IMG/VR virus record: IMGVR_UViG_3300017967_000166
Coordinates: 1-26,829 of that record
Length of the DNA stretch: 26,829 bases
Origin: a virus
Direction: 5' to 3' (one strand)
This document shows, piece after piece, positions 18,460-20,824 of this stretch (the stretch's first letter is position 1; each line of letters starts with the position of its first letter). The position numbers were made by a program, and so were the translations under genes. The notes under the pieces are model-generated. The model was not told where the DNA came from, did not search any database, and saw only the letters and a list, made by a program, of their open reading frames with translations.

Positions 18460-18479
18460 GGGGGGTTTTTACGCCCCCC
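18460..18479 (-). terminator. GC-rich hairpin, partial terminator or attenuator between head and tail genes
   Basis: On the minus strand GGGGGG, an eight-base loop and CCCCCC form a perfect six-pair GC stem just past the stop of the decoration-like gene. It is followed by TGCCTTTATT, which is pyrimidine-rich but lacks a strong run of T. It could slow or partly stop transcription or protect the 3' end of head mRNA. Full termination is unlikely because the tail genes downstream have no obvious separate promoter. Confidence 0.55.
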
Positions 18480-18492
18480 AACCTAATGTTAC

Positions 18493-18957
18493 TTAGTCGG
18501 TAACGTATTGCATGCTAAGTACGATAGTACCTGTGCCTGCTGCGCCACCCATAGTAACTGTTACTGGCATACCAGTTGCATCAGCATCAACTTCTAAACC
18601 GTAGTTTAGAGCCAATGTTGCTGCACAATCTGCAAGTCCTGCTGAAGCAGAAGATGCTGCTGCTTTGAAAGCCGCTGCACCCGCTGATACTGCTGAACCT
18701 GAAGAATCAGTATGCGCTGCATAACCTACAGAGAGAGTTGTAGATGAACCTAGTGCATCGTGTGCAATAGTTCCGCCAACAATCCTTGCTCCGTTAGGCA
18801 AGTTGAACATTTCAATGACATCACCAGATGCTAATGAAGACGCTTCATAAGTAGCGTAAGCAATTCGCACCCTTCCTGCCATTTCGTTCGTTTTTACTCG
18901 ATCAGTTGGGTTGTTTTGACTCCAACTGGTCTTCTGTGCTGAATATACAGTAGCCAT
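18493..18957 (-). CDS. Capsid decoration-like / minor head structural protein
   Basis: A 154-residue, Ala/Gly/Ser/Thr-rich protein with no charged C-terminus or membrane segment. It starts MATVYSAQKTSWSQNNPTDR, and the central EMFNLPNGARIVGGTIAHDALGSS block followed by alternating hydrophobic residues predicts a compact beta fold. Proteins of this sort directly after the capsid gene in marine phages are virion components, and decoration of the capsid surface is the likely role, though I do not recognise a named family. A strong ribosome binding site (AAGGAGGG) precedes the ATG. A hairpin follows its stop. Confidence 0.65.
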   Translation of the reverse strand: MATVYSAQKTSWSQNNPTDRVKTNEMAGRVRIAYATYEASSLASGDVIEMFNLPNGARIVGGTIAHDALGSSTTLSVGYAAHTDSSGSAVSAGAAAFKAAASSASAGLADCAATLALNYGLEVDADATGMPVTVTMGGAAGTGTIVLSMQYVTD

Positions 18958-18970
18958 GTTTCAACCCTCC

Positions 18971-19831
18971 TTATTCGTTACAAGCGATTTCTACAACTTT
19001 TTCGTCTTCTACTCGCGTAGCACCGATAGTCATTGATAGAAATACCTGAGTTGCATAATTCTTGTCTGCACGTTCAGAGATACGAGTGTTCACATCCTGA
19101 CCTACAGCAAGCCCGATTCCAGACTGCGTAAACGCCAAAACTTGTCTGTCTGAGTTTGAATCAAGACCTAGACGCTCAGTTCGTAGGAATTTGAATCCTA
19201 GATAAGTGTCGATTTGGCCTTGTACCAAACTTTTAACACTTGCGTAATCAGCAGAAGTTACCTTCGTGATGTTAAGCAAGTTAGACATTTGTTTTGAAGT
19301 TACTACACAATAGCGTGCTTCATCTGGGTCAACATCGTTAGCATCAAGAATTTCTTTTGCTTCGATTAGTTTTTCCAGAGTAAGACCTGCTGAACCATGT
19401 GCAATCTTTTGTGCTGAAGGAAGTGCAACAGTAGTACCGCCACTAACACCGCCAAAAGCGTTGCCTGTTGCTGCACTAATAATTGCATCGTCCATAGCAC
19501 GGCCCATTGCCCATGCGCCTGCCATTGCGTATTCTGATTGAGGTGAGATAAGCATTCTTACCTTATCTTCATTATCAATCAAATCTGCCCAATCGTAATC
19601 GTCCATAGTGACTTTACGTCTTGAGTGTGGTGTGTCCATTCTTGGGGTATCAGAGTGGCGAGAAGTTCGCTTCTGAGCCGCAACAGAACCAATTCGCTCA
19701 AAGAAGTGCGATTTACCTGTAACTGTTTCAGTTCTAACCGCATCCCTTAAACGTGAACCTTTCTGCTGCGCCAAGTGGAACACATTACTTTTGTACTGTT
19801 CTACAAAAGCAGTTGTGATTTCTACTGACAT
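18971..19831 (-). CDS. Major capsid protein
   Basis: A 286-residue capsid protein. A conserved block at residues about 57-95 (TSRHSDTPRMDTPHSRRKVT, then DYDWADLIDNEDKVRMLISP) matches a capsid family found in many short-tailed phages, and GAWAMGRAMDDAIISAATG follows. The C-terminal part (TQVFLSMTIGATRVEDEKVVEI) fits the closing beta strands of the fold. It assembles into the head shell on the scaffold encoded just upstream. A strong ribosome binding site (AGGAGA at 19838-19843) precedes the ATG. The 165-base leader with several predicted hairpins upstream is the only large internal gap in the late operon, which suggests its expression is separately controlled. Confidence 0.9.
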   Translation of the reverse strand: MSVEITTAFVEQYKSNVFHLAQQKGSRLRDAVRTETVTGKSHFFERIGSVAAQKRTSRHSDTPRMDTPHSRRKVTMDDYDWADLIDNEDKVRMLISPQSEYAMAGAWAMGRAMDDAIISAATGNAFGGVSGGTTVALPSAQKIAHGSAGLTLEKLIEAKEILDANDVDPDEARYCVVTSKQMSNLLNITKVTSADYASVKSLVQGQIDTYLGFKFLRTERLGLDSNSDRQVLAFTQSGIGLAVGQDVNTRISERADKNYATQVFLSMTIGATRVEDEKVVEIACNE

Positions 19832-19833
19832 AG

Positions 19834-19996
19834 TAGTTCTCCTTTGTTTAAGTTTAACATTTCACGGTTTTTATCCTTTGCAGGGAAACCTTACAGTTAA
19901 CGCACTGTCGAACGGATTTTAAGGCATCACACCTACAATCAAGGTTGTCCGATTAACGGGCCTTAATAATGTAATTCAAATATACCATATAAGTTG
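19834..19996 (-). promoter_or_regulatory. Folded leader upstream of the capsid gene
   Basis: This 165-base gap between scaffold and capsid has no reading frame. On the minus strand it can fold into a three-way junction: a 7-pair closing stem (TTAAGGC with GCCTTAA, plus-strand 19960-19966 and 19919-19925), a 3-pair hairpin (19949-19951 with 19957-19959) and a 4-pair hairpin (19931-19934 with 19942-19945). Below it are a 5-pair hairpin ACAGT/ACTGT (19893-19908) and a GGTTT/AAACC stem (19866-19890), then the ribosome binding site. No convincing promoter is seen. Possible roles are mRNA processing or stabilisation, or translational control of capsid; the sequence does not say which. Confidence 0.5.
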
Positions 19997-20824
19997 TTAA
20001 TTACCATGCACTTTTTCCATGAGTTGACGCATACGTTCCACAGCCGTTCTGTGGTCTGGGTGTTTTGCATCAAAATATGGATGATTTGCATTAGCAAATG
20101 TTGCACTAATTTCGTCCTGCGCGTCCAACCTATTGGCTGCTAGAGTATTATTCTGCGTATTTTGCGTCATATCCTCTGTGACTTCAGCACCTAATCGTGC
20201 AAACAACTTAATTACCGCAGGGTGGTTACCTGCAGTGGTATTCATAAGTTCCATCATTTCATCATCGCCGTAAACCTGCAATGCACGTTGTGCGGCTTTA
20301 ATATTTTTACTGTAATCAAGACCCCATTCTTGCTTCAGATAAGTTTCTGTTTCTTCTTTCTGAGCAGCAAGCATAGCAGGTTCGTTTTCCAACTGGCCTT
20401 GAATTGCACCTGCTTGGTAGTTAATCAAAGCATCTACTTGTTTTTGATTAAGACCAATTTCGTGCGCTACATTTTTAAATTGATTTAGTTCATTATCACC
20501 AAAATACGATTCCATGCCTTCAGGCACTTTGGTTTCATATCCTGTCGGTTCATCTGGTCTACCCAGTTTGCCGTACAATTCTTTGAAACCTTCGTCATCT
20601 TTTGGAATCGGAATACGGTTACCCATCTGCTTTTGCTGATGAACAACTGTTTTAGCAAGACTTTCTACATCTTTAAAGTTTGATAAAGTAGGGTCGTTTT
20701 TAAGATCGTCAGGTAGTGATGATTTCCAATCAAGGTTATCGCCCACTCCTTCAGACCCAAGTAGCGTACCCGCTTCCTGAGTTACCTGTTCTTCGGTGGT
20801 AACGGCCTCTGCGTTTTCTGACAT
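19997..20824 (-). CDS. Capsid assembly scaffolding protein
   Basis: A 275-residue, acidic, helix-rich protein directly before the capsid gene. The segment DNLDWKSSLPDDLKNDPTLSNFKDVESLAKTVVHQQK at residues about 29-66 and the RPDEPTGYETKVPEG block are typical of phage scaffolding proteins. A basic, helical C-terminus (DHRTAVERMRQLMEKVHGN) would bind the inner face of the capsid subunits. It directs correct assembly of the head precursor and is then released or degraded. Its ATG directly abuts the stop of the 77-residue gene. No protease domain is present. Confidence 0.85.
   Translation of the reverse strand: MSENAEAVTTEEQVTQEAGTLLGSEGVGDNLDWKSSLPDDLKNDPTLSNFKDVESLAKTVVHQQKQMGNRIPIPKDDEGFKELYGKLGRPDEPTGYETKVPEGMESYFGDNELNQFKNVAHEIGLNQKQVDALINYQAGAIQGQLENEPAMLAAQKEETETYLKQEWGLDYSKNIKAAQRALQVYGDDEMMELMNTTAGNHPAVIKLFARLGAEVTEDMTQNTQNNTLAANRLDAQDEISATFANANHPYFDAKHPDHRTAVERMRQLMEKVHGN

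Follow-up and report, generated by a model that had tools for sequence, protein, structure and literature searches.

The late genes of the phage genome fragment analysed here (IMG/VR record IMGVR_UViG_3300017967_000166, positions 1 to 26,829, hereafter the window) are tightly packed, and the locus raises the question of what the non-coding bases directly in front of the capsid gene are for. A preliminary description of the sequence had pointed out about 165 free bases at this place and a good ribosome binding site at their end. Both are present. On the minus strand, which is the coding strand, positions 19832–19996 form a gap of 165 non-coding bases between a scaffold/protease-like ORF and the capsid gene, and the ribosome binding site is AAGGAG. 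The neighbouring elements are:

19997..20824, minus strand: upstream gene, a scaffold/capsid-assembly-like ORF of 275 aa (PHROG 3742 and protease 458)
19839..19844, minus strand: ribosome binding site AAGGAG, outside the conserved helices (sequence)
18971..19831, minus strand: major capsid gene (PHROG 3437, major head protein, E 6e-101)
18493..18957, minus strand: gene for a small structural protein of the virion, the second in the proposed unit (PHROG 486)

The window phage is related to Pelagibacter phage EXVC032P Baldr, in which the homologue of the upstream ORF is annotated as capsid assembly protein. Its capsid is 80% identical to that of Baldr and 58% identical to that of HTVC010P. The two public entries OQ414636 (L082, Baldr) and OQ414635 (L625, Hodr) carry EXVC031PHodr and EXVC032PBaldr locus tags, respectively, which look swapped. 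Downstream of the capsid gene the late operon goes on into genes for virion and tail proteins; the late genes downstream of the gap span about 18 kb. Of 80 capsid relatives found in viral metagenomes, 78 have a gap of 133–203 nt before the capsid gene; the records of the other two begin too near the capsid gene for the gap length to be judged.

The aligned gaps show strong sequence conservation and share one fold on the coding strand. From 5' to 3', four hairpins (A, B, C and D) stand in series, a pseudoknot joins the B–C linker to the loop of hairpin C, and the ribosome binding site follows in the open. The parts in the window are:

19934..19973, minus strand: hairpin A, with C (19960) opposite ACAA (19945–19948) and a CC/GG tip; three inner pairs covary significantly
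19922..19934, minus strand: hairpin B (AGGUGUGAUGCCU); one significant pair
19912..19914, minus strand: linker CGU, 5' strand of the pseudoknot; the third pseudoknot pair is significant
19893..19909, minus strand: hairpin C (GACAGU..ACUGU), whose loop GCG (19901–19903) pairs with the linker; three significant pairs
19866..19890, minus strand: hairpin D (GGUUU C CC..GG AUAA AAACC), with the second C/ANAA internal loop; pairs in all sequences, nearly invariant in the clade

Hairpins A and D have a common internal loop, a feature missing from the preliminary description, in which a single C on the 5' side lies opposite A-N-A-A on the 3' side, capped by a tip of two pairs, CC/GG. In the anchored alignment, the construction of which required most of the motif, hairpin D has the C in 74 of 74 sequences and hairpin A in 72 of 74. 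In an independent MAFFT alignment of 54 sequences, GGA.AA of hairpin A and GA.AA of hairpin D are also invariant. The stem of hairpin B varies among the relatives as GGU/GCC, GCC/GGC and GUC/GAC. In the pseudoknot, the linker CGN pairs with NCG in the loop of hairpin C as CGA/UCG (24 sequences), CGU/GCG (12), CGU/ACG (11) and CGC/GCG (2), with three exceptions. Hairpin C and the CGN linker are missing together in some relatives, which supports that they form one module. Hairpins C and D are the two further stems that had been noticed before the ribosome binding site.

Covariation was evaluated with our own tree-based implementation in the spirit of R-scape (not R-scape itself), which uses a G-test with average-product correction and null alignments that keep the tree and the substitutions and scramble the positions. 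The alignment was anchored on the CCC..GGANAA motif and the CG of the pseudoknot loop, without being fitted to base pairing; after removal of six sequences whose anchor was ambiguous, it comprised 74. At E <= 0.05, 8 of the 25 proposed pairs were significant versus 6 of 6416 other pairs, and the eight comprise three pairs in A, one in B, three in C and one in the pseudoknot. Unsupervised covariation on plain MAFFT alignments was too weak, with 1–3 pairs per clade. In a model-fitted alignment, which leans towards the structure, 97.7% of the paired cells held a pair and 15 of 21 pairs had changed on both sides, a level reached by none of 500 shuffles; when the partners were slid by one column, pairing fell to about 50%. 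Hairpin D shows little covariation within the clade of the window, so it is supported by the complete pairing and by the corresponding hairpin of the HTVC010P clade. These results indicate that the gap contains a genuine conserved structured RNA, as the preliminary description had proposed should covariation exceed background.

The wobble pairs tell the strand on which this constraint acts. G-U pairs were found 84 times versus 2 A-C combinations, and thus the constraint acts on the sense RNA of the coding strand. An intergenic, sequence-conserved region could in principle be a DNA-level element (an operator, a packaging or a replication site) or a missed small gene. Since this asymmetry is the signature of a sense-strand RNA, and since gap lengths vary irrespective of reading frame, such an explanation is extremely unlikely.

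The fold differs from the one first suggested, a three-way junction closed by a perfect seven-pair stem TTAAGGC/GCCTTAA. Of 74 relatives, only 3, each close to the window in sequence, can form that stem in full, whereas the four inner pairs of hairpin A that compete with it form in 69 of 74. The three-way junction was therefore rejected in favour of the four hairpins and the pseudoknot. For the window sequence, the two folds have nearly equal energies (−22.8 kcal/mol for the TTAAGGC/GCCTTAA fold and −24.0 kcal/mol for the conserved fold), which explains the first choice. A folding energy equal to that of shuffled sequence had been named beforehand as evidence against a structured RNA. The energy of the window sequence does equal that of shuffled sequence (z 0.04; the mean z of the relatives is −0.8), yet covariation supports the RNA, so energy alone would wrongly have dismissed it. 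Single-sequence folding energy is uninformative here. The fold also bears on regulation by a riboswitch or attenuator. No terminator-like site was found on the coding strand within the gap, including after hairpin D, the ribosome binding site lies outside the helices, and the alternative TTAAGGC/GCCTTAA stem is not conserved. Because no terminator is formed and the ribosome binding site is not hidden, a riboswitch or attenuator is unlikely.

The RNA is always found directly before the capsid gene, with one copy per genome. The covariance model built for it (R1) gave one match in the window, one in Baldr and one in each of 18 contigs of relatives (24–39 kb), two of which also have a weak match on the opposite strand at the same spot. 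In a nineteenth contig, taken in through a chance pattern match, R1 finds only that chance place. Among about 90 contigs collected by the hairpin D pattern, every one with a capsid match has the pattern 29–76 nt ahead of the capsid start, and the other six were matched by chance. Loci L094, L097, L153, L158, L161, L195 and L273, with no capsid downstream, were likewise dismissed as chance matches. In a pattern scan of bacterial and archaeal genomes, the listed matches were scattered over unrelated bacteria, and the model recognised none in the 80 loci tested. Further copies of the motif elsewhere in Baldr and HTVC010P were no more frequent than in shuffles. In the Baldr-like phages L064, L082, L254, L265 and L502, hairpin D is followed, still ahead of the capsid start, by one more hairpin, in which GGAAUA..UAUUC flanks an inner stem. 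In Lederberg EXVC029P (L186, 624–716), an annotated hypothetical protein of 31 codons, Lederberg_17, spans the leader RNA and is probably an over-annotation.

The strict link to the capsid gene bears on whether the RNA might be released, by cleavage or termination, as a trans-acting small RNA that, for example, targets host messages or serves in packaging. It is compact, highly structured and has a promoter-like element of its own (see below), as a small RNA might. The linkage to the capsid gene speaks against this, as does the absence of a terminator-like site on the coding strand after hairpin D. We therefore regard action in trans as very unlikely.

The C/ANAA motif recurs, rearranged, before the capsid genes of HTVC010P-type and Hodr-type pelagiphages, whose capsids are 27–59% identical. 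A loose DNA pattern applied to viral contigs gave mostly chance matches, but it revealed the distant relatives L213, L228 and L250. In the HTVC010P-type isolates (capsids 55–59% identical), hairpin B is kept, as is a hairpin that resembles D and has an ANAA internal loop; five pairs covary, three of them in the tip of the D-like hairpin. An upstream hairpin, GUAAG-ACAA-UUC..GAA-C-CUUAC, contains the same internal loop with the strands swapped and lies partly within the annotated gp08. This first leader hairpin overlaps the 3' end of the small ORF gp08 (L083, 5756–5783; L179–L188), and the shared stretch would be both coding sequence and RNA. In the Hodr-type phages (capsids 27–32% identical to those of the present family), an AYAA hairpin stands about 50 nt before the capsid gene, apparently enclosed by a second C/AYAA loop; two inner pairs covary. 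A fourth group (within L473–L491) has two such hairpins, often with GNAA tips, and a freshwater podovirus (L190, L632) has one possible copy of the motif. In these two freshwater phages (ct9yY11 and ctVRi840), CCAGTGGCCCGCAAGGACAACCCTGG just before the capsid gene can form a C/ANAA hairpin with a GCAA tip, to which the covariance model gives no score. HTVC100P has a weak model score (E 3.6) at the right place, which shows how far the distant elements have drifted. The distant C/ANAA leaders may go back to one ancestral element or to repeated inventions.

In the capsid gap of Alteromonas phage ZP6 (L192), a near-perfect sigma-70 promoter (TTGACA, about 17 nt, TGCTATAAT) lies directly before the capsid gene; the leader after it looks structured, contains repeated GGTAGCCA motifs and does not resemble the RNA of the SAR11 phages. 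In Methylophilales phage MEP301 (L627), the capsid gap has an extended −10-like TGGTATATT and a hairpin GGCCCAGA..UCUGGCAUACC that is similar to the motif, with CAUA in place of ANAA.

The distant relatives help to judge whether a phage protein (capsid, scaffold or an early protein) binds the leader and represses or activates capsid translation, in the manner of coat or gp32-type autoregulation. The position directly before the capsid gene would suit such control, and the two identical C/ANAA internal loops in each leader resemble a protein-binding module. In contrast, the ribosome binding site lies outside the conserved helices, with hairpin D ending 29–76 nt before the start codon, and the motif persists while the capsids are only 27–32% identical, which favours a host partner. 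Autoregulation by a phage protein is thus quite unlikely.

Upstream of hairpin A, at the end of the scaffold gene, a promoter-like element is conserved, and downstream of the gene that follows the capsid gene a G/C-rich hairpin is found:

19979..19987, minus strand: extended −10 promoter element TGGTATATT, conserved in relatives
18460..18479, minus strand: G/C-rich, terminator-like 3' hairpin GGGGGG-CGUAAAAA-CCCCCC, closing the proposed unit (sequence)

Upstream of hairpin A, 78 of 80 relatives have a −10 hexamer matching at 5 or more of its 6 positions (28–45 in shuffles), and 66 of 80 have the TG extension (9–15 in shuffles). No good −35 box was identified in the window. The end of the hexamer is usually 5–6 nt ahead of the first paired base of hairpin A, and the distance from the −10 element to the motif tracks stem length (Spearman 0.58 over 40 distinct arms; the arms were folded, so this value is partly model-based). 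A sigma-70 start falls 6–7 nt downstream of the −10 element, and the RNA 5' end would accordingly lie in the stem of hairpin A, probably at about 19972–19973, its first bases.

After the gene following capsid, all 36 close relatives have a hairpin with at least five G-C pairs, as do all 40 HTVC010P-type loci and 47 of the 48 Hodr-type loci; shuffles gave 0–1. Its stretches are often G5–6/C5–6 in otherwise A/T-rich DNA (window; L001–L080, L313–L472). In the clade of the window the U tract is often poor, with at least six T in 8 of 36, so the hairpin may not terminate there. About half of the Hodr-type hairpins have a good U tract. The Hodr-type hairpin resembles a full intrinsic terminator.

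A T7-like RNA polymerase (PF00940) was not found in 20 records (18 metagenome records, Baldr and HTVC010P), while the T7 control was positive, which makes the host polymerase the likely transcriber. This agrees with the Skadi genome paper, in which no viral RNA polymerase was reported and neither terminators nor riboswitches could be identified (PMC10504331).

With the host polymerase as the likely transcriber, the main rival is that the leader acts in cis on this enzyme, like the put RNA of HK022, and lets it read through pauses or terminators in the long late operon. The put RNA is about 70 nt long, has two stem-loops with functional unpaired bases and lies just downstream of its promoter (PMC9378689). 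The capsid leader is similarly promoter-proximal, would act in cis, and has several hairpins with conserved internal loops at the inferred transcript start, with about 18 kb of late genes downstream and no T7-like polymerase to transcribe them. However, its layout is different and it is linked to the capsid gene. The conserved terminator-like hairpin soon after the leader, together with its single copy at the capsid gene rather than at the start of the late or early genes, disfavours a put-like effect. There is also no detectable similarity: R1 had no match in the HK022 immunity region (stretch 26000–31500), a weak test, as the exact place of put within this stretch was not located. An action of this type is unlikely and disfavoured.

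Covariation, wobble asymmetry, promoter spacing and strict synteny support a conserved structured leader of the capsid message. We place about even confidence in the reading that this RNA forms the structured 5' leader of a transcription unit devoted to capsid and makes the message long-lived and heavily expressed. Host RNA polymerase would use the extended −10 promoter where the scaffold gene ends, and the first nucleotide of the transcript would be the first base of hairpin A or a neighbour of it, so that the 5' end is held in the stem. The transcript would fold into A, B, C (with the pseudoknot) and D, followed by the open ribosome binding site, the capsid gene, the small virion gene and the G/C-rich 3' hairpin. 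The paired 5' end and the 3' hairpin may protect the message from decay, and a partner, which could be a host or phage protein or the ribosome, may recognise the C/ANAA loops of hairpins A and D. The outcome would be capsid produced in excess. The function put forward originally, a stabilising or translation-control RNA for the most abundant protein, seems the best-fitting one. The strong conservation of the loop sequences exceeds what a simple 5' stabilising stem needs, which counts against this reading.

The element is a structured phage mRNA leader, and several known systems resemble it in part. The ompA and T4 gene 32 mRNAs have stabilising 5' stem-loop leaders. The capsid leader likewise combines a stem at or near the 5' end with an open ribosome binding site and an abundant product, but it is far more constrained, with sequence-conserved repeated loops, a pseudoknot and four hairpins. 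The T7 capsid unit consists of promoter phi10, the gene 10 leader and terminator T-phi. The unit proposed here has the same plan, namely a promoter-like start of its own, a leader before the capsid gene and a terminator-like hairpin soon after, by which capsid would be over-expressed. Unlike T7, it has a host-type −10 promoter and a large conserved structured leader, and the phage single-subunit RNA polymerase of T7-type late expression is absent in the 20 records (PF00940). Structured leader-type RNAs of marine phages are also known from the manA, wcaG and PhotoRC-II RNAs, which occur in marine metagenomes and cyanophages (PMC2864571). Unlike these, which precede metabolic or photosynthesis genes, the present RNA precedes the capsid gene in SAR11-type podophages and matches no Rfam model.

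That the preliminary description knew of no RNA family with this layout agrees with Rfam 15, which gave no match in the window at the gathering threshold; the best sub-threshold match near the gap was a plant-virus pseudoknot (E 1.5). A likeness of GGAUAA to a segment of 23S rRNA was too short to be meaningful and was dropped. No description of the leader was found in a literature search, the scope of which left out most subscription papers and all preprints. The leader family, the repeated C/ANAA module and the link to SAR11-phage capsid units appear to be new.

Pelagiphages infect SAR11, the most abundant bacteria of marine surface waters, and the question addressed by these findings is how HTVC010P-type phages, which are without an RNA polymerase, time and boost their late genes. 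A tentative idea, to which we give well below an even chance, is that the C/ANAA loop is a portable module, occurring in normal, nested and strand-swapped layouts in several marine phage clades, that brings host machinery, be it RNA polymerase, a factor of RNA decay or the ribosome, to the capsid mRNA and is used twice per leader by phages without a T7-like RNA polymerase of their own. If true, it would be a new class of phage RNA element, standing in for a phage polymerase so that capsid dominates among the late products. The leader, the promoter-like element and the matching 3' hairpin together make up a well-defined unit open to experiment in cultivable isolates (Baldr, Hodr, HTVC010P and Skadi), and the leader defines an RNA family missing from Rfam, with a recurrent internal-loop motif by which its binding partner could be captured directly.
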